DNA of 39,616 bases, taken from NCBI GenBank assembly GCA_903930565.1, contig CAIYZC010000585.1, positions 1-39,616 of the forward strand, given 5' to 3'. This DNA comes from an uncultured Pedosphaera sp. (GTDB lineage Bacteria; Verrucomicrobiota; Verrucomicrobiia; Limisphaerales; Pedosphaeraceae). Below, one piece after another: positions 8,078 to 37,335 of this stretch. A program made the position numbers and the translations under genes. Below the pieces are notes generated by a model. That model was not told where the DNA came from, ran no database searches, and worked only from the letters and a program-made list of their open reading frames with translations. The number at the start of each line of letters is the position of its first letter. Within the stretch, counting starts at the first letter, position 1.

Positions 8078-8149
8078 GTCCCCACCATCACAAATCCGCC
8101 CCCGCGCCTCAAGTTTTTGCGCGCGGGAACGGCCGGGCCACCGCCAATG

Positions 8150-8185
8150 GACCAAATGGACGGTCGGGACAGAATGGACGGCGCT
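8150..8185. repeat. Degenerate 9-bp tandem array (4 units), site B
   Basis: Four consecutive 9-mers each begin GAC: GACCAAATG, GACGGTCGG, GACAGAATG, GACGGCGCT. The array lies between the carB1 stop and the start of the MscS-like gene. It would produce a spurious N-terminal extension if the channel gene were started upstream of 8077. Confidence 0.55.
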
Positions 8186-8245
8186 ACCCGACCGCACCAA
8201 TCCAGCCCGGGGCTGGGTGAATCGGTCGGGTGCGGAACAACCGCC

Positions 8246-9760
<1,515 letters not shown>

Positions 9761-22516: not shown

Positions 22517-22600
22517 GTGACGATTTACCACCGCGCGCGCCGACCTCGGAGAGGAACCGAACGGCGCGTGCGGTTGGTAGCTGATGTAAAAGGCAATGTT

Positions 22601-24514
22601 ATGAGCAATCCGGTGCAAATACGGCGGCGGTGGTTGATCGTCATTCTCCTGGGGATGGCGTACTCCGGCCTCGCGTACCGATTGGTCGATCTCCAGGTGC
22701 TGCGCCGGGCGAACTTGCAGGCGGAGGTGTGGACCAACACGCACCGGATTCTCCAACTGGAACCGCGCCGCGGGGACATCGTGGACAGCCGGGGCAATGT
22801 GCTGGCGACGAGCACCTTTGTAAAAACGGTCTGCGCCGACCCGGCCTTGCTCGGCGACCACGCCGCCGAAGTCGCGCACCGGATCGCGCCGCTGCTCGAC
22901 ATGAACGAAGCCGAACTCGGCCTCAAGCTGACGCCGCGGCCGCATGAGCGGGAGGATGGCCAGACGGTGACCAACCGCTTCGTGGTGCTCAAGCACAAGG
23001 TCCCGCCCGATGTCTGGCAGGCGGTGCATGATTCGATGACCAATTTCCCCTCCCACATCGTGGACCGCAAACCGACGAAGGCGGAAAAGGCCTTTTACCA
23101 CGGGCTGCGGTATTCCGCGATTTTTGTGGACCCCTCCGACGATCAATTGCGGAGCTATCCCAACGGCCATCTGGCGTCCCATATCCTGGGTTACGTCGGG
23201 GACGGCGAACGCAAGGACAGCCACGGGACGTATCATGACATCAAGGGATTGGAGGGCATCGAAGCCATGCTGGACCAGCGGATGAGCGGCACCCGCGGTT
23301 GGCGCGTGACGGAGCGCGACGGGTACCGCCGCGAGCGGGTCGAGTACCGGGAGGAAAATGTGGAACCCCGGGACGGCCTGCATGTCGGCCTGACCCTGGA
23401 CCTGGTCATTCAAGGGATTTTGGAGAGCGCGCTGGCGGAGGCCAAGGACAAGGAAAAGCCGGCTTATATCAGCGGCATGGTCATGCGGCCCAAGACCGGG
23501 GAGATTCTGGCCATGTGCAGCCTGCCGGATTTCGACCCAAACCACATGGAGCACACCACGGCCGATCAGCTCCGCAACCGGTTGATCATGGACTACCATG
23601 AACCGGGGTCGACCTTCAAAATTGTGGTCATCGCCGGGGCGCTGAACGAAAACCTGGTGCATTTGACGGATCATATTAATTGCGAAAACGGCCACTTCCT
23701 GTATGCGGGGCGAATTTTGCACGACAGCAGTCCGCACGGCGATTTGACCGTGGAGGGGGTCCTGATGAAATCGTCCAACATCGGTGCCGCCAAGATCGGC
23801 ATGATCATGGAGCGGCCCCGGTTGGATCGTTACATGCGGGATTTCGGGTTTGGCGCGCCGACCAGCATCCTTTTGCCGCACGAGACCCCGGGCTTGATGC
23901 CGCGGAATTGGACCAAGGATTCCATCGTCCAAATCCCCATGGGACAGGGCGTCTCGGTGACTTCGTTGCAAATGATGATGGCGATGGGCGCGCTGGCGAA
24001 CAAGGGCGTGTTGATGCGCCCGTTGTTGGTGGACCGTTTGTTGGATGCGGGTGGCAATGTCGTGACCCGTTTCCCGCCCGTGGCGGCGCGGCAGGTGGTC
24101 TCCGAAGCCACGGCGAAGCTGATGGTGGAAGCGCTGAAAACCGTGGTCACCAAAGAGGGCACCGCGGTGCGCGCGGCCATGGAAAATTACACCGTCGCGG
24201 GCAAGACGGGCACGGCGCAAAAAGTGCCGTACGCGGCGCACAAGTGGTATGCCTCGTTCGCGGGCTTTTTCCCGGCGGACAATCCCGAAGTCTGCATCTA
24301 TATCGCCATGGACGAACCCCACGATCCCGCGGGGCTGCACCAAGGCGGGCAAGTTTGCGCCCCCGTCTTCAAGCAGGTCGCGGAGAAAGTCGCCAGCTAT
24401 TTGAACATCAAGCCGGACCGCGGGATGGACGCGCCGGCGCCCGCGGCCGGTCCGGCCCCGGTGGCGGGCCAGGGCAAGACGCCCCAGCCCATCAAGACCG
24501 CAATGCTGCGGTAA
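22601..24514 (+). CDS. ftsI: Septal peptidoglycan transpeptidase FtsI (PBP3)
   Basis: The 637-residue class B penicillin-binding protein has a cytoplasmic start and one membrane anchor (WLIVILLGMAYSGLAYRLVD). A dimerisation/pedestal domain begins at LEPRRGDIVDSRGNVLATS, and a transpeptidase domain follows with all three motifs: STFK with nucleophile Ser337, SSN (391-393) and KTG (535-537, in VAGKTGTAQK). It crosslinks septal peptidoglycan together with FtsW. A GTG at 22517, directly after the ftsL stop, would add 28 basic residues; I prefer ATG 22601 on N-terminal style. murF starts 7 bp after the stop, where murE is usually found. Confidence 0.95.
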   Translation: MSNPVQIRRRWLIVILLGMAYSGLAYRLVDLQVLRRANLQAEVWTNTHRILQLEPRRGDIVDSRGNVLATSTFVKTVCADPALLGDHAAEVAHRIAPLLDMNEAELGLKLTPRPHEREDGQTVTNRFVVLKHKVPPDVWQAVHDSMTNFPSHIVDRKPTKAEKAFYHGLRYSAIFVDPSDDQLRSYPNGHLASHILGYVGDGERKDSHGTYHDIKGLEGIEAMLDQRMSGTRGWRVTERDGYRRERVEYREENVEPRDGLHVGLTLDLVIQGILESALAEAKDKEKPAYISGMVMRPKTGEILAMCSLPDFDPNHMEHTTADQLRNRLIMDYHEPGSTFKIVVIAGALNENLVHLTDHINCENGHFLYAGRILHDSSPHGDLTVEGVLMKSSNIGAAKIGMIMERPRLDRYMRDFGFGAPTSILLPHETPGLMPRNWTKDSIVQIPMGQGVSVTSLQMMMAMGALANKGVLMRPLLVDRLLDAGGNVVTRFPPVAARQVVSEATAKLMVEALKTVVTKEGTAVRAAMENYTVAGKTGTAQKVPYAAHKWYASFAGFFPADNPEVCIYIAMDEPHDPAGLHQGGQVCAPVFKQVAEKVASYLNIKPDRGMDAPAPAAGPAPVAGQGKTPQPIKTAMLR

Positions 24515-24521
24515 CCCCTTC

Positions 24522-25937
24522 ATGGAACCCCGAACCCTCCAATTTATCGCCTCGGCCTGCGGTGGCGAACTCCGCGCGGGCGCGCCCGGACGGAGGGTGA
24601 CCGGTCTGACCACCGATTCCCGGAAAGTGGGGGCGGGGGAACTCTTTTTCGCGCTGCCGGGCGACCGTTTTGACGGGCATGATTTTGTGCCGACGGTGGC
24701 CGCCGCGGGCGCCGGAGCGGTGGTGGTGGCGCGGTCGTGGACGGGGAGTGTCGGCGACCATGACTGCGGGGTGGTGGTGGTGGACGACACCAGGCGGGCG
24801 CTGGGGCGCCTGGCCGCGGCGTACCGGGCGCAATTTGCGGCCCGGCGCATCGCGGTGGGGGGATCGAATGGCAAAACCACGACCAAGGAGTTGCTGGCGG
24901 CGGTGCTCGCCGAACGGTTGGCGACGTTGGCCAGTGAAGCAAGTTTCAACAACGACATCGGGGTGCCCCTGACCCTGCTGCGGTTGACGGCGAACCACGC
25001 GGTGGCGGTGCTGGAAGCCGGCACCAATCATCCGGGCGAATTGGCGTTGCTGGTGGCGCTGATCGCCCCGGAGTTCGGGGTCATCACGAGCATCGGGCGG
25101 GAGCACTTGGAGCATTTCGGCGACGTGGCCGGGGTGGCGGAGGAGGAAGGGGCGCTGGCGGCGGGATTGCCGGCGGAAGGGCGGCTGTTCTTGAATGGCG
25201 ACGACCCGTGGAGCGCGGCCTTGGCGGCGCGCAGTGCGGCGCCGGTGATCCGGGTCGGCTGCGGACCGGCGAACGATTGGCGGGCGGAGCAAATCCGCCT
25301 GGACGAACAGGGGGCGGAGTTTTCCGTCCGGGGACCCCGGGCGGAGCTCGCCGGGCAGTACCGGGTGAATTTGCTCGGCCGGCACCAAGTGGGCAACGCC
25401 CTCCTGGCGTTGGCGGTAGCGGCGGAGTTGGGGTTGACGGCGGCGGAAATCCGCCGCGGGTTGGCGGCTTGCCGGCCGGCGCGGATGCGCCTGCAAACGT
25501 GGGATTGGAACGGCGTGCGGGTGCTGGACGACGCCTACAATGCGAACGCCGATTCGATGCTCGCGGCGCTGGCGACCTTGCGGGATTTGCCCTGCGCGGG
25601 GCGCCGGGTGGCGGTTTTGGGGGATATGGCGGAGCTCGGCGGGCAGGCGCCGGCGGCGCACGCCGAGGTGGGGCGCGGGGCGGTTGCGGCCGGGGTGGAC
25701 CGGCTGTTTGCGGTCGGCCGGATGGCCGGAGTGCTGGGGTCCGCGGCGCGGGCGGAAGGCCTGGCGGCGGTGAGTGAGTATGCCGCGCCGGCGGCGGCGG
25801 CGGCGGAATTACGGAGTTATTTGCGCCCGGGGGATGTGCTCCTCCTGAAGGCCTCGCGTTCCACCCGGTTGGAGCGGCTTGGCGAAGCGTTGCGCGCGCC
25901 GGCGGAAGGTGAGTCAGCTCATGTTTTACTATCTTAG
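24522..25937 (+). CDS. murF: UDP-MurNAc-tripeptide:D-Ala-D-Ala ligase MurF
   Basis: MurF adds D-Ala-D-Ala to UDP-MurNAc-tripeptide in the cytoplasm. The 471-residue protein has TDSRKVGAGELFFALPGDRF with DGHDF, the P-loop VGGSNGKTTTKEL (about 112-124), ASFNNDIGVPLTLLRL, EAGTNHPGEL, and the MurF hallmark VLDDAYNANADSM. One oddity: where Mur ligases usually carry the carbamylated Lys in an A-K-G-E motif, this protein reads A-E-E-E-G, with Glu209 at the Lys position in my alignment from memory. A Glu could supply the same negative charge. It overlaps mraY by 17 bp. Confidence 0.95.
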   Translation: MEPRTLQFIASACGGELRAGAPGRRVTGLTTDSRKVGAGELFFALPGDRFDGHDFVPTVAAAGAGAVVVARSWTGSVGDHDCGVVVVDDTRRALGRLAAAYRAQFAARRIAVGGSNGKTTTKELLAAVLAERLATLASEASFNNDIGVPLTLLRLTANHAVAVLEAGTNHPGELALLVALIAPEFGVITSIGREHLEHFGDVAGVAEEEGALAAGLPAEGRLFLNGDDPWSAALAARSAAPVIRVGCGPANDWRAEQIRLDEQGAEFSVRGPRAELAGQYRVNLLGRHQVGNALLALAVAAELGLTAAEIRRGLAACRPARMRLQTWDWNGVRVLDDAYNANADSMLAALATLRDLPCAGRRVAVLGDMAELGGQAPAAHAEVGRGAVAAGVDRLFAVGRMAGVLGSAARAEGLAAVSEYAAPAAAAAELRSYLRPGDVLLLKASRSTRLERLGEALRAPAEGESAHVLLS

Positions 25938-27069
25938 CCAATATTTGCTCGAAACGTCGGCGGGCACGGAATGGGAACCCCTCCTCTCGGGGGTGCGCCT
26001 GTTTCGTTACATCACGTTCCGCGCGGCCGGGGCGGCGCTCACGGCGCTGCTGCTCGGCCTGTGGCTGGGCCCGAAGATGATTGCCTGGCTCAAGGAACTG
26101 AGTTTCGGCCAGAATTACCGGGACAAAGCCGAGGTCGCCGGCAACCTGACGGCGCGGGAGCCGCGCAAAATGGGCACGCCGACCATGGGCGGGCTGCTGA
26201 TCGTCATTATCTTGAATTCCACCACGTTGCTGTGGGCGCAGTGGAATCCGCTGATTTCACTCACGCTGCTCTCCGTCGTGGTGCTGGCGGGGCTGGGTTT
26301 CTACGACGACTATCTGAAGATCACCAAGGCGAGCAGCGGCGGGGCCAAGTCGCGGGTGAAGTTGTATGTGCAATGCGGGCTGGCGTTGTTCATCGGCGTC
26401 TATCTCTGGCGCGTGCCCGCCACCAGCGGCCTGATCACCGAGATCATGGTGCCCTTTTACAAATACCCGGTGGCCACCGGGGTGGGGGGCGTGGGCTTGC
26501 TCCTGACCTTGCTCACCATTGTGGGAAGTTCCAACGCCGTGAACCTCACGGATGGTTTGGACGGCCTGGCCATCGGCTGCACGCTGATTGTCTCCGTGGT
26601 GTTTGTGATTTTGACCTATCTAGCCGGCAACGCCAAACTAGCGGCCTATCTGCAAATCCCCCACGTGAACGGGGCGGGGGAATTGACCGTGTTTTGCGCG
26701 GCGATGATTGGTGCGGGGCTGGCGTTTCTGTGGTATAATTGCCATCCCGCCATGGTGTTCATGGGGGACACGGGTTCGCTCGCCCTGGGCGGCGCGCTGG
26801 GGATTGTGGCGGTGTTGATTCACCAACCTTTGGTGCTGGTGATTGCCGGCGGGGTGTTTGTGCTGGAGGCCGTCTCCGTGATTCTGCAAACCAGTTACTT
26901 CAAATACACCCGGCGGCGCTACGGCACCGGGCAACGGTTGTTTCTGATGGCGCCGTTGCACCATCACTTCGAGAAGAAGAACTGGCATGAATCGCAGGTG
27001 GTGACCCGCTTTTACATTTTGTGCGTGCTGTTCGCCGTGGTGGCGCTGAGCAGTCTGAAAATTCGGTGA
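25921..27069 (+). CDS. mraY: Phospho-MurNAc-pentapeptide transferase MraY
   Basis: MraY transfers phospho-MurNAc-pentapeptide to undecaprenyl phosphate, forming lipid I. The 382-residue, roughly ten-helix protein has PRKMGTPTMGGLLIVIILNS, LAGLGFYDDYLKITKASSGG with the Asp pair, SSNAVNLTDGLDGLAIG, MVFMGDTGSLALGGALG and the cytoplasmic HHHFEKKNW loop. All are diagnostic. The ATG at 25921 has a good Shine-Dalgarno (GGAAGGTGAG) inside the end of murF, with which it overlaps by 17 bp. murD follows after 16 bp. Confidence 0.97.
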   Translation: MFYYLSQYLLETSAGTEWEPLLSGVRLFRYITFRAAGAALTALLLGLWLGPKMIAWLKELSFGQNYRDKAEVAGNLTAREPRKMGTPTMGGLLIVIILNSTTLLWAQWNPLISLTLLSVVVLAGLGFYDDYLKITKASSGGAKSRVKLYVQCGLALFIGVYLWRVPATSGLITEIMVPFYKYPVATGVGGVGLLLTLLTIVGSSNAVNLTDGLDGLAIGCTLIVSVVFVILTYLAGNAKLAAYLQIPHVNGAGELTVFCAAMIGAGLAFLWYNCHPAMVFMGDTGSLALGGALGIVAVLIHQPLVLVIAGGVFVLEAVSVILQTSYFKYTRRRYGTGQRLFLMAPLHHHFEKKNWHESQVVTRFYILCVLFAVVALSSLKIR

Positions 27070-27085
27070 GCCACGAACGATCCGA

Positions 27086-28492
27086 ATGAGTGATTTGAAA
27101 AACAAACCAGTGCTGGTGGTGGGCCTCGGCCGCCGCGGGGCGGCGGCCTGCGAATTGCTGCGCCAGGTGGGCGCGCGGGTCGTGGTGCTCGACCAGGCGG
27201 ACACGCCGGAATTGCGGGTGACCGCGGCCGCGCTGGCCGCCCAGGGAGTGGAGGCGCACTTGGGCGCGGACCGGCCGCCGGGGCGCGACTTCGCCCTGGC
27301 CGTGTTGAGCCCCGCGGTGCGGAATGACAGCCCGATCGCGGCCGAACTGGCGGCGCGCGGGATTCCCGTGATCGGGGAGTTGGAGTTGGGCTACCAACAG
27401 GCCCGCTGCCTCACGCTTGCGGTGGCGGGCACCAACGGCAAGGCGACCACCGGCGAACTCATCGAGCGGATGCTGACCGGCAACCAACGCTCCGCCGTGC
27501 TCTGCGGGCACGGCGCCCGGCCGGTCTGCGCCGTGGCGGCCGGCAGCAGCGCGTTGGATTACCTAATTCTGCAAGTCAACGCCTTCCAACTCGAAAACAC
27601 CGCCACGTTCCGCCCGGCCATCGCCGTGCTGCTGAACCTGGCGGCCGATCATCGCGACCGCTATCCGCGGGCGGAGGATTACGCGCGGGTGATGGCCCGG
27701 TTGTTCGCCAACCAGCAGACTTTTGATTGGGCGATTGTGCAGAGCGAAGCGCTGGCGCGCCTGCGCTCCGCCGGGCTGCCTTTGCCGGCGAAGCTGATCA
27801 CCTTCAGCGCCCAGAACCGGCGGGCCGACTTGTATCTCGACCGGGGCCGGATTTTCAGCCGCCTGCCGGATTGGACCTGGCCGCTGCTGGACTTGGGCCG
27901 TTGCCGTTTGGGCGGGGCGCACAATGCGGAAAACCTCATGGCGGCGCTGGCCGTGGGGCATATCCTGCGGCTGCCCTTGGACGCCATGGCGGATTTGTTG
28001 GCCACGCAGCCCGCGGGCGCGCATCGCTGCGAGCGGGTGGGGGAAGTGGGCGGGGTGACCTACATCAACGATTCCAAAGCCACGAATGTGGATGCGCTGC
28101 AGCGCGCCCTCGAACTGGCCCCCGGCGGGGCGGGCGAACCGAACGTGTGGCTGATCGCCGGCGGCGTGGACAAAGGACTGGATTTCTATGAGGTCGGACC
28201 CCTGATGTCCCAGCGGGTCAAGGGCGCCTTTCTGATCGGCGCGGCCGCCGAGAAGCTGCGCGCCGCCTGGGGCCTATTTACTGCTTGCAACCTGCGCGGC
28301 TCATTGTTAGAAGCTGTGGATGCGGCAGCCGCGGTGGCGGTGCCCGGCGATGTGATTCTATTATCCCCCGCCTGCTCCAGCTTCGATCAGTTTCGAAACT
28401 ACCAGCACCGTGGTGATGTCTTCCGCCAGGCGGTCGCAGAGAGGATGGCCGCCGCGGGTCGTCCGGACGAGAACGGGACGGCGCGGCCATGA
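27086..28492 (+). CDS. murD: UDP-MurNAc-L-Ala:D-Glu ligase MurD, with altered catalytic motifs
   Basis: The 468-residue frame aligns with MurD throughout: VLVVGLGRRGAAACELL at the N-terminus, AVAGTNGKATTGEL, NLAADHRDRYPRAEDYARV, INDSKATNVDAL, IAGGVDKGLDF and LLSPACSSFDQFRNYQHRGD. The C-terminal domain looks normal, but several active-site residues in the first two domains are changed. The P-loop reads GTNGK-A120-TT where Ser/Thr is expected. The GNIG motif is replaced by GHGARP (141-146). The usual E-[LV]-S-S-F-Q is Q163-V-N-A-F-Q. The Lys that becomes carbamylated in E. coli MurD appears as Met203. His189 is kept. The frame is clean, so this is not simple decay. It may be a MurD with unusual chemistry or one that has lost activity. 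Alignment is from memory of family motifs. Confidence 0.9.
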   Translation: MSDLKNKPVLVVGLGRRGAAACELLRQVGARVVVLDQADTPELRVTAAALAAQGVEAHLGADRPPGRDFALAVLSPAVRNDSPIAAELAARGIPVIGELELGYQQARCLTLAVAGTNGKATTGELIERMLTGNQRSAVLCGHGARPVCAVAAGSSALDYLILQVNAFQLENTATFRPAIAVLLNLAADHRDRYPRAEDYARVMARLFANQQTFDWAIVQSEALARLRSAGLPLPAKLITFSAQNRRADLYLDRGRIFSRLPDWTWPLLDLGRCRLGGAHNAENLMAALAVGHILRLPLDAMADLLATQPAGAHRCERVGEVGGVTYINDSKATNVDALQRALELAPGGAGEPNVWLIAGGVDKGLDFYEVGPLMSQRVKGAFLIGAAAEKLRAAWGLFTACNLRGSLLEAVDAAAAVAVPGDVILLSPACSSFDQFRNYQHRGDVFRQAVAERMAAAGRPDENGTARP

Positions 28493-28614: not shown

Positions 28615-29505
28615 ATGAACACATCCAATCCACTCCTCCCCAAGGGCTCGCTGCTGGAGCAGCAGAGCAAGGGCCGCCGTCGAATCAAGATTTACGTCTA
28701 TTGCGGCATCGCCGTCCACGTCCTCCTTTTCGGCGGCCTGCTCATGCTCGGCTGCGGCAAGGACACCGACACGACCAAGACGACCAAGACCGAAACCGCC
28801 GGCGGGCTGCCGCCCGTCGACGCGCCGATCAGCAATCCGCCCCCGGTGGAGCCGATCCCCGCCACCAGTGGGCCGACGAACCCCGCACCGCTGCCTCCCG
28901 CGCCCGGCAGCTATGCCGCGGGCACCAGCGCCCCCCCCGTCACCCCGTTTGTGCGGCCGGACCAGCCCGTCCTGCCCACCGGCAATCCGGGCCTGCCGAC
29001 CACCGCTCCCGTCACCGGGGCGGCCACCGAGTACAAAGTGGCGAAGGGCGATTCCTATTATACCATTCATAAGAAGTTTGGGGTTTCCATCAAAGCGTTG
29101 GAAGCCGCCAACCCCACGGCCCCGGCCAACAAGCTCAAACCCGGGATGACCCTGCAGATTCCCGCCCCGACCGCGGCCGCTCCGACCGCCGCTCCCGTGG
29201 GTGGCGCGGGCACCGCGCCCGTCACGGCCGCCGCGGACGGCGGCGACACCTACACCGTCAAGTCGGGCGACAACCTGACCAAGATCGCGACCAGCCACCA
29301 TGTGGACTTGAAGGCGCTCCGGGCGGCCAACGGTTTGAAGACCGACCGCCTCAAAGTGGGCCAGAAGCTGAAGCTCCCGGCCGCCAAGCATTCGACGGCG
29401 ACGGCCGCCATCCCGGCGCCGATCGAAACGCCGGCTTCCGTCCCCGCCCCCGTGCCGCCGCCGCTGGGCTCGCCCGCTCCGGCGGGAACGGGCGCCGCGC
29501 GCTAA
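28615..29505 (+). CDS. LysM-repeat envelope protein within the dcw cluster
   Basis: The 296-residue protein has a basic cytoplasmic start (KGRRRIKIYVY) and one membrane segment ending in Gly-Cys-Gly (about 26-48: YCGIAVHVLLFGGLLMLGCG). A Pro/Thr-rich linker follows to about 135. There are two LysM domains, at about 139-183 (YKVAKGDSYYTIHKKFGVSI) and 212-255 (YTVKSGDNLTKIATSHHVDL), then a Pro/Ala tail. LysM domains bind the glycan chain of peptidoglycan, so this is probably a wall-anchored or membrane-tethered protein. The MLGCG segment could be a lipobox variant, but its position after 40 residues makes this doubtful. It sits between murD and ftsW and is flanked by two hairpins. Confidence 0.9.
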   Translation: MNTSNPLLPKGSLLEQQSKGRRRIKIYVYCGIAVHVLLFGGLLMLGCGKDTDTTKTTKTETAGGLPPVDAPISNPPPVEPIPATSGPTNPAPLPPAPGSYAAGTSAPPVTPFVRPDQPVLPTGNPGLPTTAPVTGAATEYKVAKGDSYYTIHKKFGVSIKALEAANPTAPANKLKPGMTLQIPAPTAAAPTAAPVGGAGTAPVTAAADGGDTYTVKSGDNLTKIATSHHVDLKALRAANGLKTDRLKVGQKLKLPAAKHSTATAAIPAPIETPASVPAPVPPPLGSPAPAGTGAAR

Positions 29506-29583: not shown

Positions 29584-30720
29584 ATGAAGACCGCCGCCAA
29601 CTTGCTTTGCTTCTGCGTCCTCGCCCTGCTTGCCCTGGGCATGGTGATGTTGTACAGCTCGGTGATGGCCGAGCGGGGGGGGATGCATTTGTTGATCAGC
29701 CAAGGGGCTTTCACCCTTGTCGGACTGGCGGCCTGCCTGATCGCCGCCAGCATGGATTACCGCATTCTCAAGGCGTTGGCGTGGCCGTTTTTTGCCGTTT
29801 CGATTTTGCTCTTGGTGCTCGTGTTGATCCCCAATGTGGGCTACCGGGCGAACGGCGCCAGCCGCTGGTTCCGGGAGCCCCATACGAAGGTGCAGTTTGA
29901 ACCTTCCGAGCTGGCCAAGATCGCCTTGATCATTGTGCTCGCGTGGTATGGGGAATATTTCCAGCGCCAGATGGGCACCTTCCGGCGCGGAGTGCTGCTG
30001 CCCGGCGTCTTCATCGGCTTGATGTTGGGTTTGATTTTTGTGGAGCCCGATGTCGGGTCTATGATGCTGTTGGCGAGCGTCAGCGGCGCGTTGCTGCTTT
30101 TGGCCGGGGTGCGCTGGCGGTTTATTGTCCCGCCCGTGCTGCTGGCGTTGACCGGACTGGGCTGGTTTTTGTGGCGGGATCCGATGCGCAGCCGGCGCAT
30201 TCTGGCTTGGTTGGACGTGGAGAAGCACAAATTGGACGTGGGGCTGCAGGGCAAGCAGGCGATGCTGGCTTTCGGTTCCGGCGGCTGGACCGGCCTGGGT
30301 TTGGGCAACAGCCGCGCCAAACTGGGCTTCCTGCCGGAGCACCATACGGATTTCATTTTTCCGATCATTGGCGAGGAACTCGGCCTGATCGCCACGCTGG
30401 CGGTGATCCTGGCCTATGGGTTGATCCTGGGCTGCGGCCTCTATATTTCCTCCCGCGCCCGCGACACCTTTGGGATGTTGCTGGGTTCGGGTATCACCTT
30501 GCTGATCGGTCTGCAGGCGGCGATCAACATCGGGGTGGTGACCAGCGCACTGCCCAACAAGGGCCTGCCGCTGCCCTTCATCAGCTATGGCGGGTCCGAT
30601 CTGGTGATTCTGCTCGCGTGCGTCGGCGTGCTGCTCAGTGTCGGCAGGCATGCGCCCGCGCTCGACGGGAACGTGGTGACCACGGAACCGGACGCCCTGC
30701 CCGAAGCCCAAACCGCATAA
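29584..30720 (+). CDS. ftsW: Septal peptidoglycan glycosyltransferase FtsW
   Basis: FtsW is the SEDS-family glycan polymerase that works with FtsI at the septum. The 378-residue protein has about ten membrane helices. Family motifs are GMVMLYSSVMAERGG, YRANGASRWF, QFEPSELAKIALII, IFVEPDVGSMMLL with the catalytic Asp, KQAMLAFGSGGWTGLGLGNS, LGFLPEHHTDFIFPIIGEEL and the terminal GLPLPFISYGGSDLV. It is separated from the LysM gene by a strong hairpin, and murG starts 7 bp after its stop. Confidence 0.97.
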   Translation: MKTAANLLCFCVLALLALGMVMLYSSVMAERGGMHLLISQGAFTLVGLAACLIAASMDYRILKALAWPFFAVSILLLVLVLIPNVGYRANGASRWFREPHTKVQFEPSELAKIALIIVLAWYGEYFQRQMGTFRRGVLLPGVFIGLMLGLIFVEPDVGSMMLLASVSGALLLLAGVRWRFIVPPVLLALTGLGWFLWRDPMRSRRILAWLDVEKHKLDVGLQGKQAMLAFGSGGWTGLGLGNSRAKLGFLPEHHTDFIFPIIGEELGLIATLAVILAYGLILGCGLYISSRARDTFGMLLGSGITLLIGLQAAINIGVVTSALPNKGLPLPFISYGGSDLVILLACVGVLLSVGRHAPALDGNVVTTEPDALPEAQTA

Positions 30721-30727
30721 TCACACT

Positions 30728-31918
30728 ATGTCCAACTCCGCTCCTTCCTTTCGGGTGGCGATCGCGTGCGGCGGCACGGGTGGTCATCTTTTCCCCGGTG
30801 TCGCCGTGGCGGCGGAACTGCGGGAGCGCGGCTGTGTGGTGCGTCTGTTGATTTCCCCCAAGGAGATTGACCAGCAGGCCGTCCGTACGGCGCGGGATTT
30901 GGAATTTGATGTGCTTCCCGCGGTCGGCTTGACCCGCGGGGGCGCCCTGGCCTTCGCCAAAGGTTTCGCCGGGGCGTACCGGTCGGCGGCCGCGGCCTTC
31001 CGCGTCAACCGGCCCGATGCGGTGCTGGCCATGGGCGGGTTCACGAGCGCGCCGCCGGTATTGGCGGGACGGGCCGTGGGGGCTTTGGCTTTCCTGCACG
31101 AGTCCAACACCATTCCCGGCAAGGCCAACCGCTGGTTGTCCTGGTTGGTGAGCGAAGCGTTTGTGGGATTTCCCGAAGCGGCCGACCGATTGCACACCGC
31201 CCGGAGCCGGATGACCGGTACGCCCGTGCGTCCCGAGTTCAGCGCGGTTCCGGCCGGCCCGGGGGCGGCGCGCGCCGCGGCCCGCCAAGCGCTGGGGCTC
31301 GCGCCGGAGCGGCCCACGCTGTTGGTGACCGGCGGCAGCCAGGGGGCCCGCGGCCTGAATGATTTGGTGCTGGCCGCGCTGCCGCAACTCCGCCAACTGG
31401 TCCCCGATTTGCAGTTGTTCCACCTGACCGGACCGGCCGACGCCGAAAAGGTGACGGCCGCCTGCGCCGCGCTTCAAATACCCGCCGTCGTGCGCCCGTT
31501 CTGCGGGGAGATGCACCTGGCCTTGGCCGCCGCGGACGCGGTGATCAGCCGTGCCGGTGCGTCCTCGCTGGCGGAGATCGCCGCCATGCGCGTGCCCGCG
31601 CTGTTGGTGCCGTTTCCGGCCGCGACGGACAACCATCAGTTTTTCAACGCCCTCGCGTTCGAACAAGCCGGCGCCGCCCGGTTGTGTCCGGCGGCGGGCA
31701 CGACCCCCGGAGCTTTGGCCGCGAGCACGGCCGAGTTGCTGGGGGCCACCCCGGCGGCGGTCGCCATGCGCGGCGCGTTGGCGCAGTGGCATTTCCCCGG
31801 CGCGGCGGCGCGGATCGCCGACGAGATTCTGACGGCCATCGCGCTGGCCCGCGCCCGGGCCGGCGGTCCGCCGGCCCGGATCGCGGCATTGGCCGCCACC
31901 ACTTCCCTTTCCGTATGA
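30728..31918 (+). CDS. murG: UDP-GlcNAc:lipid I N-acetylglucosaminyltransferase MurG
   Basis: MurG converts lipid I to lipid II on the inner face of the membrane. The 396-residue GT-B enzyme has the N-terminal ACGGTGGHLFPGVAVA motif, MGGFTSAPPVLAG, FLHESNTIPGKANRWLS, VTGGSQGARGLNDLV, SRAGASSLAEIAA and PFPAATDNHQFFNALAFEQA with the sugar-nucleotide-binding residues. It has a slightly long Ala-rich C-terminal tail. murB overlaps its stop as ATGA. murC, commonly found between murG and murB, is absent. Confidence 0.97.
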   Translation: MSNSAPSFRVAIACGGTGGHLFPGVAVAAELRERGCVVRLLISPKEIDQQAVRTARDLEFDVLPAVGLTRGGALAFAKGFAGAYRSAAAAFRVNRPDAVLAMGGFTSAPPVLAGRAVGALAFLHESNTIPGKANRWLSWLVSEAFVGFPEAADRLHTARSRMTGTPVRPEFSAVPAGPGAARAAARQALGLAPERPTLLVTGGSQGARGLNDLVLAALPQLRQLVPDLQLFHLTGPADAEKVTAACAALQIPAVVRPFCGEMHLALAAADAVISRAGASSLAEIAAMRVPALLVPFPAATDNHQFFNALAFEQAGAARLCPAAGTTPGALAASTAELLGATPAAVAMRGALAQWHFPGAAARIADEILTAIALARARAGGPPARIAALAATTSLSV

Positions 31919-32892
31919 CCACCCTGTCCGCCAACTTGGATTGCGCCCCCACCGGCGACGCCGCTTCCACCCCGGGGGCGGCACCGCATCCGTGGCTGGC
32001 GGAATTGCGCGCGCGGTTGTCGCCCGCGACCATTTTGCGGGCCGATGAACCCCTGGCCAAGCGCACCACGCTGCGCGTGGGCGGCCGCGCCGATTTCTAT
32101 GCCGAGCCGGTGAACGAACGGGAATTGACCGCCTTGGTGCAGTGGTGCGCCGAACGGCGGTTGCCATGGTTCCTGCTGGGGCGCGGGTCGAATTTGTTGA
32201 TCCGGGATGGCGGCCTGCGCGGTTTGGTGGTGTGCCTGGCGGCGCCGGCTTTCAGCGCGATTGATGTGGTGGGCAACCATTTGCATTGCGGCGCGGGGGC
32301 GCGCTTGAAACAAGTGGCCATGACCGCCAAACAACGCGCTTTGACTGGCTTGGAGTTTTTGGAGGGGATCCCGGGTTCCGTGGGCGGGGCCTTGCGCATG
32401 AACGCCGGGGCGATGGGCAGTTGGACTTTTGACGTGGTGGAGTCGTTGCGTTACATGGACGCCGGTGGCGGGGTGCATGAGGCCGAGGTGGCCGAGGTGG
32501 CCGTGGAATACCGCTGCTGCCCGCTGCTGCGCGAGAACATCGCCCTGGGCGCGGTCCTGCGCGGGCATCCTTCCAGCCGGGAAGTCGTCAACCAGCGCCT
32601 GCAAACGTTCAACAAGAAGCGTTGGGATTCCCAACCCGCCGCGCCGAGCGCCGGTTGCATTTTCAAGAATCCCACCACCGTCCCCGCGGGCAAGCTGATC
32701 GATGAGCTCGGGCTCAAGGGCATGCGGGTCGGCCAGGCCATGGTGTCCCAGGAGCACGGCAATTTCATCGTCAACGAAGGCGGCGCGACGGCGCGGGAAG
32801 TGTTGGACCTGATCGAACTGATCCGCGCGCGGGCACGGCAGGCCCGCGGTATTGATTTGCACACGGAAGTCGAAATTGTCGGCGAGGATTAA
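31915..32892 (+). CDS. murB: UDP-N-acetylenolpyruvoylglucosamine reductase MurB
   Basis: MurB is the FAD/NADPH enzyme that reduces UDP-GlcNAc-enolpyruvate to UDP-MurNAc. The 325-residue protein has LAKRTTLRVGGRADFYAEP, WFLLGRGSNLLIRDGGLRG, GLEFLEGIPGSVGGALRMNA with GAMG, VEYRCCPLLRE, and SAGCIFKNP, where the general-acid residue is Cys248 rather than the Ser of E. coli; Cys is seen in other bacterial MurB proteins. The ATG is fixed by an ATGA overlap with murG. A 30-residue Ala/Pro-rich leader precedes the domain. ddl follows after 4 bp. Confidence 0.96.
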   Translation: MTTLSANLDCAPTGDAASTPGAAPHPWLAELRARLSPATILRADEPLAKRTTLRVGGRADFYAEPVNERELTALVQWCAERRLPWFLLGRGSNLLIRDGGLRGLVVCLAAPAFSAIDVVGNHLHCGAGARLKQVAMTAKQRALTGLEFLEGIPGSVGGALRMNAGAMGSWTFDVVESLRYMDAGGGVHEAEVAEVAVEYRCCPLLRENIALGAVLRGHPSSREVVNQRLQTFNKKRWDSQPAAPSAGCIFKNPTTVPAGKLIDELGLKGMRVGQAMVSQEHGNFIVNEGGATAREVLDLIELIRARARQARGIDLHTEVEIVGED

Positions 32893-32896
32893 GGTT

Positions 32897-33826
32897 ATGG
32901 CGCAATCCAGGCACATCACGGTCATGTTGGGCGGCCCTTCGGCCGAGCGGGAAGTTTCCCTGCGCACCGGCGGCGCGGTGGCCAAGGCCCTGCGCACCCT
33001 CGGTCACACCGTGGATGAACTTGATCCGCGCGGGCTGGACTGGCAATTGCCGAAGGGAACGGAAGTGGTTTTTCTCGCCCTGCACGGGACCTATGGCGAA
33101 GACGGCACGGTGCAGCGGCAGTTGGACGCCCTGGGCGTGCCCTACACCGGGTGCGACGCCGAGGCGAGCCGGTTGGGTTTTGACAAACGCCTCACGAAGG
33201 AACGTTGCGTGGCGGCCGGGGTGCCGACGGCCCGGTTTGTGGTCGTGACCGCGGCGGACGCGCCGTGGCCCGCCGGGTGGCAACCGCCGGTGGTGCTCAA
33301 GCCGGTCCGCCAGGGTTCCAGCGTGGGACTCCAGTTTGTGGACCGCGTCGCCGACTGGCCCGCCGCGCTCGCGGCCGCGTTGCAATTTGATTCCGAGGTC
33401 TTGGTCGAGGAACGGATCGTGGGCCGCGAAACCACGGTGGGAATTTTGGCCGGCGTCGCCCTGCCGGTTGTGGAGGTGCGCCCGAAGTCCGGCGCGTTTG
33501 ATTACCAGAACAAGTACACCGCCGGCGCCACCGATGTTTTTTGCCCCGCCGACTTGGAGCCGACCACGGCCGCGCGCATCCAAGCCGCCGCGCTGGGCGC
33601 GTTCCACGCCATTGGCGGCCGCGATTACGCGCGGGTGGATGTCATGATCCGGCCCCCCGGCGAGCCGGTGGTGCTGGAAGTGAACACGCTGCCGGGCATG
33701 ACCGAGCTGAGTTTGCTGCCCAAGGCCGCCGCCGCCGCGGGCATCAGTTACGCCGAGCTTTGTCAGCGCATGATCGACCTCGCCCTCCGGCATCCGGTCG
33801 GTGGCGGGAAAGGAGCCGACCGATGA
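32897..33826 (+). CDS. ddl: D-alanine--D-alanine ligase
   Basis: Ddl makes the D-Ala-D-Ala that MurF attaches. The 309-residue ATP-grasp enzyme has VMLGGPSAEREVSLRTGGAV, VFLALHGTYGEDGTVQ, LDALGVPYTGCDAEASRLGF with DK, VVLKPVRQGSSVGL, the omega-loop region FDYQNKYTAGATDVFCPA and VVLEVNTLPGMTELSLLPK. The residue after YQNKY is consistent with D-Ala-D-Ala rather than D-Ala-D-Lac specificity, judging from the Tyr in the loop. The start at 32897 is preferred over the longer frame from 32852, which overlaps murB. ftsQ overlaps its stop as ATGA. Confidence 0.96.
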   Translation: MAQSRHITVMLGGPSAEREVSLRTGGAVAKALRTLGHTVDELDPRGLDWQLPKGTEVVFLALHGTYGEDGTVQRQLDALGVPYTGCDAEASRLGFDKRLTKERCVAAGVPTARFVVVTAADAPWPAGWQPPVVLKPVRQGSSVGLQFVDRVADWPAALAAALQFDSEVLVEERIVGRETTVGILAGVALPVVEVRPKSGAFDYQNKYTAGATDVFCPADLEPTTAARIQAAALGAFHAIGGRDYARVDVMIRPPGEPVVLEVNTLPGMTELSLLPKAAAAAGISYAELCQRMIDLALRHPVGGGKGADR

Positions 33827-34797
33827 GCTGGTTCCGTCGCGGGGGCAAAAATCGCCGGAGCACCGGGCGCTCCCAAGTCCTGCCGGTGCGGCTGGAGTTG
33901 GAGAACGTGCGCGCGGGCCGCCTGCGCGTCGTCGCCACGTTGTTGGCGGTGCTGTTTGTCACCGCCGCGGCGATCTACGGCCTCCTGTTCGCGGGTGATT
34001 GGGCGATGCGCCGTTTCGTGTACGAAAACCCGTCCTTCGCGATTCGCCAGATTGAGGTGCAGACGGACGGGGTGATTTCCCGTGACGAACTGCGCCGCTG
34101 GGCGGGCGTGCAGCGGGGCCAAAATCTGCTGGCCTTGGATTTGGCGCGCGTGAAGCGTGATTTGGAACTCGTTTCCCATGTCCGCTCGGCGGCGGTGGAG
34201 CGCGTTTTGCCCGATACCCTCCGCCTGCGGGTGACGGAACGGGAGGCGGTGGCGCGGGTGTTCGTGGGCCGCTTGGGCCGCGACGGCCAATACGAGATGA
34301 CGACCCTGCACTTGGATGACGAGGGTTACGTCTTGGAATTGCTGGAGCCACGGCAGCGCGCCACGCCCCAGCCCGACACCGATGATTCCCTGCCGCTGAT
34401 TTCAGGGATCAACCCCAATGATTTGGCGCCCGGCCGGCAGGTGAACCTCCCCGAGGTTCATGCCGCGCTGGACTTGGTGGCCGCGTTCGACCACTCGTCC
34501 ATGGCGACCGTCGCCGATTTGCTGCAGGTGGACGTTTCCTCCCCCGAGGTTTTGGTGGTCACCACGACCCAGGGCAGTGAGATCACCTTTGCGTTTGCGG
34601 ATTTGGACCGCCAGTTGCGCCGTTGGCGCGGGATTTATAACGAGGGGCAGCGGATCAGCAAGGCGATCGCCCGGCTGGACTTGGCCGTGCCCAATTATAT
34701 TCCCGGGCTGTGGGTGGAAGCGTCCAATCAGCCCCCCTTGGAGCCCAAACCCAAGCACCACCTCATCAACCACCGGAGGAGAAATGTTCGATCCTGA
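33823..34797 (+). CDS. ftsQ: FtsQ/DivIB-type cell division protein
   Basis: The 324-residue bitopic protein has a basic cytoplasmic start (MSWFRRGGKNRRSTGRSQ) and one membrane helix (LRVVATLLAVLFVTAAAIYG, about 35-58). A POTRA domain follows (FAIRQIEVQTDGVISRDELR, GVQRGQNLLALDLARVKRDL, VRSAAVERVLPDTLRLRVTE), then a beta domain (ITFAFADLDRQLRRW) and a basic tail. FtsQ links FtsL/FtsB to the divisome. The start is fixed by the ATGA overlap with ddl. The end contains the Shine-Dalgarno of ftsA and overlaps the ftsA start by 14 bp in another frame. Confidence 0.93.
   Translation: MSWFRRGGKNRRSTGRSQVLPVRLELENVRAGRLRVVATLLAVLFVTAAAIYGLLFAGDWAMRRFVYENPSFAIRQIEVQTDGVISRDELRRWAGVQRGQNLLALDLARVKRDLELVSHVRSAAVERVLPDTLRLRVTEREAVARVFVGRLGRDGQYEMTTLHLDDEGYVLELLEPRQRATPQPDTDDSLPLISGINPNDLAPGRQVNLPEVHAALDLVAAFDHSSMATVADLLQVDVSSPEVLVVTTTQGSEITFAFADLDRQLRRWRGIYNEGQRISKAIARLDLAVPNYIPGLWVEASNQPPLEPKPKHHLINHRRRNVRS
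34775..34781 (+). promoter_or_regulatory. Strong Shine-Dalgarno of ftsA
   Basis: GGAGGAG lies two bases before the ATG at 34784, inside the 3' end of ftsQ. It is the strongest ribosome-binding site in the cluster and settles the ftsA start. It suggests ftsA is translated more efficiently than the coupled genes before it. Confidence 0.8.
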
Positions 34798-35995
34798 TTC
34801 CTTGATTGTCGGTTTGGAAATCGGCACGTCCAAAATCTGCGCCGTGGTCGGCGAGGTCAACGAAGCCGGCGCCTTGAACCTGATCGGTATCGGCCAGGCC
34901 AAATCCCGCGGCGTGCGCAAGGGCGAGGTGGCCGATCTCGACAGCACCGCCGAAGACATCCGGGTCGCCATTGTCGAAGCCGAAAAGTCCGCCGACGTGG
35001 AAATCCGCAGCGTTTTTCTCGGCGTCACCGGGAGCCATATTCGCGGCTTCAACAACCTGGGTGTGCTCCAAGTGGTGTCCGTGGACCGGGCCATCACGCC
35101 CGAGGACGTGCAGGACGTGGTCAAAAACGCCAAGGCGATCAACCTGCAAAAGGAGAATCACCTCATTCACGCCGTCCGCCAGCACTTCCACTTGGACGAC
35201 CAGGACGGGGTGGTGAATCCCGTCGGCATGACGTGCACCAAGCTGGAGGTGGACATGCATGTGGTCCACGGCAATTTCAACCGGCTGCAGAATCCGATCC
35301 GGGCCGTGAAGAGCCTGCAATTGGAGGTGGATGCGGTCGCGTTCAACGGCCTGGCCTCCGCGCTCGCCCTGCTTACCCCCGAGCAAAAGGAAATGGGCGC
35401 GCTCGTGATCGATTTGGGCGGCGGCACCACGGATTACGCGGTCTACGCCGGCGGCATCCTCAAGCACACCGGCGTGCTGGCCGTGGGCGGCGACCACGTC
35501 ACCAACGATCTCGCCTACGCTTTGAAAGTCCCCATGGGCCGGGCGGAGAGCGTCAAGCTGGAGCACGGCGGCGCGTTGGTGGACGACACCTGCCGCGGGC
35601 GCACCGTGCCCTGTGAGAATGATCTTGGCCTGCCGGTGAAGACCGTCAATCTGGAGCACCTCCGGCGCGTCATGCACCTGCGGTTGGAGGAAATTTTCCA
35701 ATACATTGAGCAGGATTTGGCCCGCGCCGGCCTCCTTGACCGCCTGCCCGCCGGAGTGTTCCTCTGCGGCGGCGGCGCCCGCACGCCGGGTATTGAGAAG
35801 CTCGCCGAACGCGTGTTCCAGCTCCCCGCGGTCGTGGGCAAGACCAATTCCCTCAACGGACTCAAGTCCGCGCTGGACCAACCCGAATTCGCCACCGCCA
35901 TTGGCTTGGTTCGCTTCGGTTCCTTCCAGCACAAAAAGCGCGGCGGCTTCCTGCCGGAGGCGCTGCGGCCGATCGTCGAAATCTTCCGGAAATAG
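34784..35995 (+). CDS. ftsA: Cell division protein FtsA
   Basis: FtsA is the actin-like ATPase that tethers FtsZ to the membrane. The 403-residue protein has the phosphate-1 motif LIVGLEIGTSKICAVVGEV, SHTF-domain segments (FLGVTGSHIRGFNNLGVL), ALVIDLGGGTTDYAVYAGG (phosphate 2), AVGGDHVTNDLAYAL, VFLCGGGARTPGIEKLAERV (adenosine motif) and a C-terminal amphipathic-helix-like tail (LPEALRPIVEIFRK) that could contact the membrane. The start is set by a strong Shine-Dalgarno within ftsQ. ftsZ follows after 20 bp. Confidence 0.97.
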   Translation: MFDPDSLIVGLEIGTSKICAVVGEVNEAGALNLIGIGQAKSRGVRKGEVADLDSTAEDIRVAIVEAEKSADVEIRSVFLGVTGSHIRGFNNLGVLQVVSVDRAITPEDVQDVVKNAKAINLQKENHLIHAVRQHFHLDDQDGVVNPVGMTCTKLEVDMHVVHGNFNRLQNPIRAVKSLQLEVDAVAFNGLASALALLTPEQKEMGALVIDLGGGTTDYAVYAGGILKHTGVLAVGGDHVTNDLAYALKVPMGRAESVKLEHGGALVDDTCRGRTVPCENDLGLPVKTVNLEHLRRVMHLRLEEIFQYIEQDLARAGLLDRLPAGVFLCGGGARTPGIEKLAERVFQLPAVVGKTNSLNGLKSALDQPEFATAIGLVRFGSFQHKKRGGFLPEALRPIVEIFRK

Positions 35996-36015: not shown

Positions 36016-37335
36016 ATGGACACCCAACCCCTCCCGGCCGCCGCGTCCGCCCCTGCTTCCGCTCCCGGCGCCGCCCGGCAGTTTTCGATCAAGGTGATCG
36101 GCGTCGGCGGCGGCGGCGGCAACGCCGTCAACCAAATGCTGGGTCAGAATTTCGTCGGCGTTCATTTCGTGGCCGCCAACACCGACGCCCAGGCACTGGC
36201 CGGTTTGGGCGCGGTGGAGCGGTTCACCCTGGGGGTCGGCCGCACCCGCGGACTGGGCACCGGCGGCGACCCCGAAGTGGGCCGCGCCGCCGCCGAGGAG
36301 GATGCCGAGCAAATCCGCGCCGTGTGCGCGGGGGCGGATGTTGTTTGTATCGTGGCCGGTTTGGGCGGCGGCACCGGCACCGGGGCCGGCCCCGTCATCG
36401 CCCGGATCGCCAAGGAAGCCGGTGCGCTCGTACTGGGGATCGTCACCCTGCCGTTCGAATTTGAAGGCTCCCGCCGTCAGCGCCAAGCCCAACTCGGGCT
36501 GCGCGACTTGAAACAAGCCGCCGACGGCGTCATCTCCTTTCCCAATCAAAAGGTGTTCCGCCTGGTGGATCCGAACACCAAAATGCCCGAGGCGTTCCGC
36601 ATCACCAACGACCTGCTCTCCCAGGGCGTTCGCGGCATCTGGCAATTGCTCACCCAGCCCGGGCTGATCAACGTTGATTTCAACGACCTTTGCACGGTGC
36701 TGCGCGATCGCCACGAGGAAAGCTCGCTGGCCACCGTCGAAGCCGGCGGCGACAACCGCGCGCAGGAAGTGCTCGACAAAATCGGCAATCATCCTTTCCT
36801 CGAAGGCGGCCAGGTCCTCTCCGAAGCCGACGCCGTCCTGATCAGCCTCGCCAGCGGTCCCGACCTGACCATGGCCGAGATCAACCGCGTCATGGAACAT
36901 TTCAACCGGCAATGCGAGAACGCGCACATCATCATGGGTGCCGCCATTCGCGAGGACGCCGGCGACCGCCTCTCGGTCACGGTCGTCGCCTCCCGCCGGG
37001 CGCATCGGCCCGGCCCGCCGCCCTCCGACCTCCGCGAAACCGCGCATCCGCCGCTGGAATTTGACGGCGAACTCGACGCCAGTTCCGTCGCCCCCCGGGG
37101 CGCGTCCCGTTTCGTGCCCCCCGCGCCCGCGCTCACCGCCGAGCAAACTCAGCAACTCCTCCTGAGCCAATCCGGCAACGGCGCCCGGCGCAAAGGGAAA
37201 GGCAACCAGATCCAAGGCCAGTTGCCGCTCGAAGTCATTTCCCGTGGTCGTTTCGAAAAGAGCGAGCCCACCATCCACAAAGGTGAGGACCTCGACGTCC
37301 CCACCTATATCCGTCGCGGCGTGCCCTTGAACTGA
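36016..37335 (+). CDS. ftsZ: Cell division GTPase FtsZ
   Basis: FtsZ polymerises into the cytokinetic ring. The 439-residue protein has KVIGVGGGGGNAVNQML, the tubulin signature GLGGGTGTGAGPVIA (about 116-129) and the T7 loop NVDFNDLCTVL with Asp221 and Asp224 for GTP hydrolysis of the neighbouring subunit. The C-terminal linker is moderate in length and ends in a conserved tail: GRFEKSEPTI followed by DLDVPTYIRRG (426-436). That tail is the FtsA-binding peptide and looks like verrucomicrobial FtsZ. It is the last gene of the operon; no clear U-tract terminator follows. Confidence 0.98.
   Translation: MDTQPLPAAASAPASAPGAARQFSIKVIGVGGGGGNAVNQMLGQNFVGVHFVAANTDAQALAGLGAVERFTLGVGRTRGLGTGGDPEVGRAAAEEDAEQIRAVCAGADVVCIVAGLGGGTGTGAGPVIARIAKEAGALVLGIVTLPFEFEGSRRQRQAQLGLRDLKQAADGVISFPNQKVFRLVDPNTKMPEAFRITNDLLSQGVRGIWQLLTQPGLINVDFNDLCTVLRDRHEESSLATVEAGGDNRAQEVLDKIGNHPFLEGGQVLSEADAVLISLASGPDLTMAEINRVMEHFNRQCENAHIIMGAAIREDAGDRLSVTVVASRRAHRPGPPPSDLRETAHPPLEFDGELDASSVAPRGASRFVPPAPALTAEQTQQLLLSQSGNGARRKGKGNQIQGQLPLEVISRGRFEKSEPTIHKGEDLDVPTYIRRGVPLN

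Follow-up and report, generated by a model that had tools for sequence, protein, structure and literature searches.

Sequence analysis of the dcw cluster of an uncultured Pedosphaera sp. suggested that the stepwise route on UDP-MurNAc, in which MurC adds L-Ala, MurD adds D-Glu and MurE adds meso-DAP, has been abandoned in this genome and in several related lineages, a reading to which we assign a probability of about 0.7: murC and murE are deleted, glutamate racemase is gone, MurD is a pseudoenzyme, a remnant or absent, and Mpl is the sole known peptide ligase left on UDP-MurNAc. The lineage seems to build or obtain its stem peptide by some other way. The source organism is a Pedosphaera-like soil/freshwater bacterium of the order Limisphaerales (Verrucomicrobiota), and the window, the whole stretch of DNA that was analysed, is 39,616 nucleotides long.

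MurC, MurD and MurE are antibiotic targets and, to our knowledge, are regarded as essential for the making of any peptidoglycan wall; no description of this ligase loss was found in the literature. If the reading is true, a widespread environmental order has FtsZ, FtsI, MurF, MraY and MurG but no MurC, MurD or MurE, and its stem peptide is supplied otherwise, by an undiscovered tripeptide-making system or through dependence on the wall peptides of other bacteria.

The genes of the cluster and the altered positions of the murD homologue, here called MurD*, lie in the window as follows:

22517..24514, + strand: ftsI-type transpeptidase; its end lies 8 bases ahead of murF, at the site of murE in complete relatives
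24522..25937, + strand: murF; 410 bits, P-loop GSNGKTT and LEAGTN intact
25921..27069, + strand: mraY (profile scan)
27086..28492, + strand: murD homologue (MurD*), 468 aa; by its residues a MurD-fold pseudoenzyme (S116A, N138H, E157Q, S159N, K198M)
27428..27451, + strand: MurD* P-loop GTNGKATT; Ala at the expected Mg/ATP Ser/Thr of GxxGK[ST]T
27506..27523, + strand: MurD* GHGARP in place of GNIGxP; the UMA-contacting Asn, N138, is H142
27572..27589, + strand: MurD* QVNAFQ in place of E[LV]SSFQ; the Mg-binding Glu, E157, is Q163
27692..27694, + strand: MurD* Met203 in place of carbamylated Lys198
28615..29505, + strand: conserved cluster gene for a LysM-repeat protein (identified by eye)
29584..30720, + strand: ftsW (profile scan)
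30728..31918, + strand: murG; its stop and the start of murB overlap (ATGA), at the site of murC in complete relatives
31915..32892, + strand: murB; preceded by or fused to a murC frame in complete relatives
32897..33826, + strand: ddl (profile scan)
33823..34797, + strand: ftsQ (named by position and resemblance)
34784..35995, + strand: ftsA (named by position and resemblance)
36016..37335, + strand: ftsZ (profile scan)

In MurD, Glu157 and the carbamylated Lys198 are Mg-binding, Asn138 of the GNIG loop contacts UMA, and the P-loop Ser/Thr is the Mg/ATP residue. The original prediction was that the MurD of this cluster has lost several catalytic motifs while its frame and C-terminal domain stay intact. 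The codons that it named proved right, and direct reading gave K119 (AAG, 27440), A120 (GCG, 27443), H142 (CAC, 27509), Q163 (CAA, 27572), N165 (AAC, 27578), H189 (CAT, 27650) and M203 (ATG, 27692); S116, N138, E157 and K198 are lost. The 468-aa frame is open, and the retained motifs are NDSKATN (28067), AGGVDK (28157) and SPACSS (28364). Alignment to E. coli MurD, in E. coli numbering, gave the changes S116A, N138H, E157Q, S159N and K198M, and left K115, T117, H183 and R302 unchanged together with the C-terminal D-Glu/ADP residues D317, K319, T321, K348 and S415; the motif letters of the E. coli reference sequence match alignments to solved MurD chains.

An AlphaFold model of MurD* (pLDDT 86.8, pTM 0.75) has the three-domain Mur ligase fold and aligned with solved MurD structures over its full length (Z approximately 36-38). 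Since the model aligns end to end, nothing points to a register shift at the catalytic positions, and the structure-based check that had been proposed found none of these residues displaced. MurD* scored 323 bits against the NCBI profile model TIGR01087 (cut-off 212), so an automatic pipeline would label it a working ligase, a name under which the dead enzyme and the absent pathway go unnoticed. MurD* thus shares with MurD (UDP-MurNAc-L-Ala:D-Glu ligase, TIGR01087) the fold, the domain order, the dcw position, the C-terminal glutamate/ADP site and an above-cut-off HMM score, but it lacks the P-loop Ser/Thr, N138, E157 and K198, and the partner that makes its substrate, MurC, is absent from the genome. 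Judged by its sequence, MurD* is a MurD-fold pseudoenzyme, and D-Glu ligation is very probably not what it is retained for.

Every one of the 8 family genomes carries these changes, the 7 relatives being 62-80% identical to MurD*. In the same genus (G001, 80% identity) the motif letters are identical to those of the window; the other six members read GKG(T)T, CGH.[AS]RP and Q.N[SA]FQ, with N, T or Y at the K198 position. All complete-pathway MurD proteins of the order that were tabulated read GKTT, GN[IV]G.P and E.SS[FY]Q, with Lys at K198. Values of dN/dS for MurD* against three family members were 0.16, 0.20 and 0.12, rough figures given a dS near saturation, and lay within the range found for MurF, MurG and FtsW in the same three pairs, which indicates that the protein is kept. 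The dN/dS check asked for beforehand therefore pointed to purifying selection, and assembly errors at these codons are ruled out by seven relatives that carry the changes under such selection.

MurD decay was also found outside the family, with A, H, V or I at the K198 position. The motifs read GKG, GHGARP and QLGVFH in G034; GQRSRP, QVKVQQ and Met in G057; GSPDHP, EVTVPQ and Met in G039; GKE, GHTGCP, QANALQ and His in G049; and GGSG[QH]A, EVNSFQ and Val/Ile in L063/L074. In L073 nearly all motifs are lost, the C-terminal residues too, and approximately 475 codons are still open; in G028 the GNIG loop alone is altered. Genomes G031 and G017 have only a C-terminal MurD stretch between mraY and ftsW, and G048, G055 and others have nothing of MurD at that site. 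Remnants were located as follows:

L052 12497-12742, strand -: MurD C-terminal remnant between mraY and ftsW
L050 12852-13214, strand -: MurD C-terminal remnant between mraY and ftsW

One of the decayed forms (L063, 3786-6358 and upstream) comes from a MAG labelled Akkermansia muciniphila that MraY places within the Limisphaerales; its MurE (VTGGKSRACT, ELDPEM) and MurD are both decayed and its cluster is without MurC.

The Mur-ligase middle domain, PF08245, was found in four proteins of the genome of the window: MurF, MurD*, Mpl and a putative FolC, assigned by score and length. Complete relatives have six (MurE, MurF, MurD, MurC-MurB, Mpl and a FolC-like protein). Throughout the family of the window the only matches are MurF, MurD*, Mpl and a FolC-like protein, and in seven other families only MurF and Mpl, with a FolC-like match in most. 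By PF08245 and TIGR01087 searches and by dcw synteny, MurC and MurE are absent from this genome. A second MurD, proposed as the enzyme that would carry out the D-Glu step, did not materialize: neither this genome, 95.8% complete, nor the rest of its family gave another MurD with TIGR01087, the remaining matches being MurF and Mpl.

Across the order, 293 genomes were surveyed, nearly all of them drafts or MAGs. Among the 154 good ones, 111 had at most four Mur-ligase middle domains and 43 had five or more; these are counts rather than classifications, and some low counts will reflect draft gaps. Twenty of the 42 families are wholly reduced. Named genomes (Pedosphaera sp., Limisphaera sp. SKYG106, UBA6082 and others) have the same cluster minus only murE, murD and murC, with the order FtsI-MurF-MraY-FtsW-MurG-MurB-Ddl otherwise unchanged; an exact excision of this kind is no assembly gap. 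Decay of MurD, its reduction to a C-terminal remnant or its absence accompanies the loss of MurC and MurE in nearly every genome examined, while the sequences of MurF, Mpl, MraY, MurG, MurB and Ddl are retained. MurD would have lost its catalytic parts because the whole branch dropped three otherwise essential peptidoglycan peptide steps. In the MraY tree the family of the window falls within a group of 21 rows, all of them reduced; by parsimony the reduced state takes 7 changes, on weak branches that would allow fewer origins. Genomes G046 (L142) and G106 (L141) have a MurE with largely intact motifs, MurC, MurD and MurI being gone.

A survey from 2025 describes the dcw genes as highly conserved in Verrucomicrobiota (PMC12283558). 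Within the PVC superphylum, Planctomycetia with dcw gene loss (Pirellulales, Isosphaerales and Gemmatales) likewise lack murC and murD, but they are without murA, murF, murG and ftsW as well (PMC12283558), whereas the Limisphaerales described here keep the rest of the dcw cluster, ftsZ included, and are without the middle ligases only.

The Mpl (murein peptide ligase) of this genome carries the family motifs and scored 445 bits (TIGR01081, cut-off 389). Mpl is ordinary in the reduced genomes, with EGDEYD[TS][AS]FFDK, F[GA]HHP, EPR[ST]NTTRR and [ST]NGG conserved and the tripeptide-specific AFFDK, F[GA]HHP, EPR[ST]NTTRR and SNGG kept. Published rates show a strong preference, with 260/min for the DAP tripeptide, 0.7 for L-Ala and 1.4 for L-Ala-D-Glu (PMC3060825). 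In E. coli and Psychrobacter Mpl serves recycling, and net synthesis is carried out by MurC, MurD and MurE; here it has no MurC or MurE beside it. Mpl would be the only known ligase left to make the UDP-MurNAc-tripeptide needed by MurF, a tight deduction from absence, as the count took in every Mur-ligase middle domain.

Glutamate racemase (MurI, TIGR00067) was above cut-off in none of 18 reduced and in 8 of 9 complete genomes (Fisher p = 4e-6, kinship ignored). The search for a dedicated D-Glu source covered MurI, by this profile. Chlamydia makes D-Glu by DapF (PMC5885031), so the absence of MurI is weak evidence on its own. Chlamydia resembles the reduced Limisphaerales in being without glutamate racemase and differs from them in keeping the MurC-F ligases and using DapF for D-Glu (PMC5885031).

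The reduced genomes more often encode a protein like dipeptide epimerase (E < 1e-28; 15 of 18, against 2 of 9 complete genomes; Fisher p = 0.004, kinship ignored); three of the 18 have no strong match. For the protein of this genome the nearest solved entries include 3iji, deposited as a muconate cycloisomerase, and 1jpd, an L-Ala-D/L-Glu epimerase; it scores below the NCBIfam equivalog cut-offs and is a putative dipeptide epimerase. The known role of L-Ala-D/L-Glu epimerase (YcjG/YkfB, DgcA-like) is murein peptide breakdown; the reduced-genome protein is an enolase-fold protein that resembles dipeptide epimerase. Its neighbours resemble LdcA, DacB and NamZ in G062; a ROK-type kinase is its neighbour in the genome of the window (all by eye). 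With such recycling genes around it in some genomes, the epimerase may merely degrade recycled peptide. Two further arrangements were seen: a FolC-like gene divergent from the adjoining dipeptide epimerase gene in L123 and L129 (G013, G100), and, in L122 and L133, a second, DgcA-like epimerase type adjoining a DUF1611/DgcN-like gene, as in D-glutamate catabolism (by eye).

These observations are best explained if UDP-MurNAc-tripeptide is no longer built stepwise: Mpl, as the main entry, would load a ready-made tripeptide and MurF would finish the chain. The free tripeptide would come from further ligases, perhaps via L-Ala-L-Glu and the dipeptide epimerase. That many Limisphaerales join L-Ala and L-Glu, epimerise the product, add DAP by other ligases and load the tripeptide in one step through Mpl, a full precursor pathway with no MurC, MurD, MurE or MurI and, in one family, a dead MurD as structural subunit, is a tentative proposal that we hold at somewhat less than even odds. 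The MurE of G046 and G106 speaks against a route by tripeptide only, which does not require it; there a dipeptide may also enter, or MurE may be about to be lost.

No tripeptide-making enzyme was found among LAL, RimK, NRPS and permuted ATP-grasp candidates. Matches to LAL-type ligase (PF13535) were weak only, did not track the loss and, in reduced genomes, lay largely at Ddl loci. RimK (PF08443) showed no pattern with the loss, and three of the four matches read were pyruvate carboxylase. An NRPS is present in G114, but PF00668 is absent from 10 reduced genomes; permuted ATP-grasp (PF14403) is absent from at least 10. The E. coli YbdK (GCS2) query gave no match in 1.68 Mb of the approximately 2.3 Mb of G114, and no conserved neighbourhood around mpl or the epimerase gene was seen across families. 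In some query sequences (E. coli YcjG, MurD, MurE, MurC, OppA and others) single letters may be off, which is immaterial for a homology search. By eye, L166 (460-6258; G114, 2.3 Mb genome) has an NRPS of two modules that includes a thioesterase, next to a phosphopantetheinyl transferase-like gene.

The main rival to this proposal is an external peptide supply. The reduced bacteria would be murein-peptide auxotrophs that take up foreign peptidoglycan fragments and the products of their own turnover and load them via Mpl, the only known entry left. The loss of MurI fits, the epimerase stands together with LdcA-, DacB- and NamZ-like genes in G062 (the last three by eye), and peptide-binding proteins (PF00496) occur in most reduced genomes. 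They are, however, no commoner there than in complete genomes and are missing in G015, G046, G055, G106 and G114; no AmpG-, OppA- or OppB-like protein was found in the 1.68 Mb of G114, and genome sizes of 2-9 Mb also weigh against scavenging, which we regard as rather unlikely. It is improbable that enzymes other than Mur ligases add L-Ala, D-Glu and DAP singly to UDP-MurNAc, with Mpl only recycling. Up to three new enzymes and a D-Glu source would be needed, with MurI absent, when Mpl already offers a single-enzyme solution; yet the LAL, RimK, NRPS and permuted ATP-grasp searches gave no replacing ligase, so the substrate of such an enzyme is left free, and the largely intact MurE of G046 and G106 looks as if single steps were separately replaceable.

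The role of MurD* was considered in the same way. Retention of K115, T117, H183, R302 and the C-terminal site, and the conservation within the family of GH.[AS]RP and Q.N[SA]FQ, as might be needed for a new function, would suit a ligase whose chemistry is altered or whose substrate is new, and MurC and Mpl do function with Glu in place of the carbamylated Lys (PMC3060825). In MurD*, however, no Glu is found at K198, where the residue drifts (M/N/T/Y/A/H/V/I), and E157 is Q; further residues are lost elsewhere (L073), or the whole gene, and UMA cannot be made without MurC. Since MurC, MurE and glutamate racemase are gone too, a UMA substrate is not to be expected, and a dedicated source of D-Glu is not seen either. 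The altered metal chemistry once offered as an explanation is unlikely given the free drift at K198 and the variation of the P-loop residue, and a ligase of any such kind is very improbable. A decaying, functionless relic would account for the graded series that runs from the loop change of G028 through the motif loss of family f1 and the remnants of G031 and G017 to the absence in G048 and G055, and for the close sisters in the MraY tree without MurD (L061, L062); against it, the frame is open in 8 of 8 family genomes at 62-80% identity, with dN/dS in the range of working neighbours, and we consider it doubtful.

Repurposing as a regulator or scaffold, the remaining suggestion of the original prediction, has become plausible because purifying selection of the ordinary kind keeps the gutted protein conserved; the role itself we can only infer. 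In Thermotoga, MurD, MurE and MurF bind MurG and MreB (cited in PMC6420597). If MurD* were a structural part of such an assembly, its conservation at full length without an active site would be explained, and it probably survives as a structural partner, which may be that of a MurG/MraY/MurF assembly.

Two features of other enzymes were observed in passing. The carbamylated Lys position of MurF, which we take to read AKGE in E. coli, is EEG or similar in the window and in relatives across the order, the complete-pathway L067 included; the active site of these MurF proteins otherwise looks intact. On the - strand of the window (6584-9760) the large subunit of carbamoyl-phosphate synthase looks split in two frames, 8246-9760 by Pfam and a putative 6584-8200, and G114 also has a 527-aa CarB-like half.
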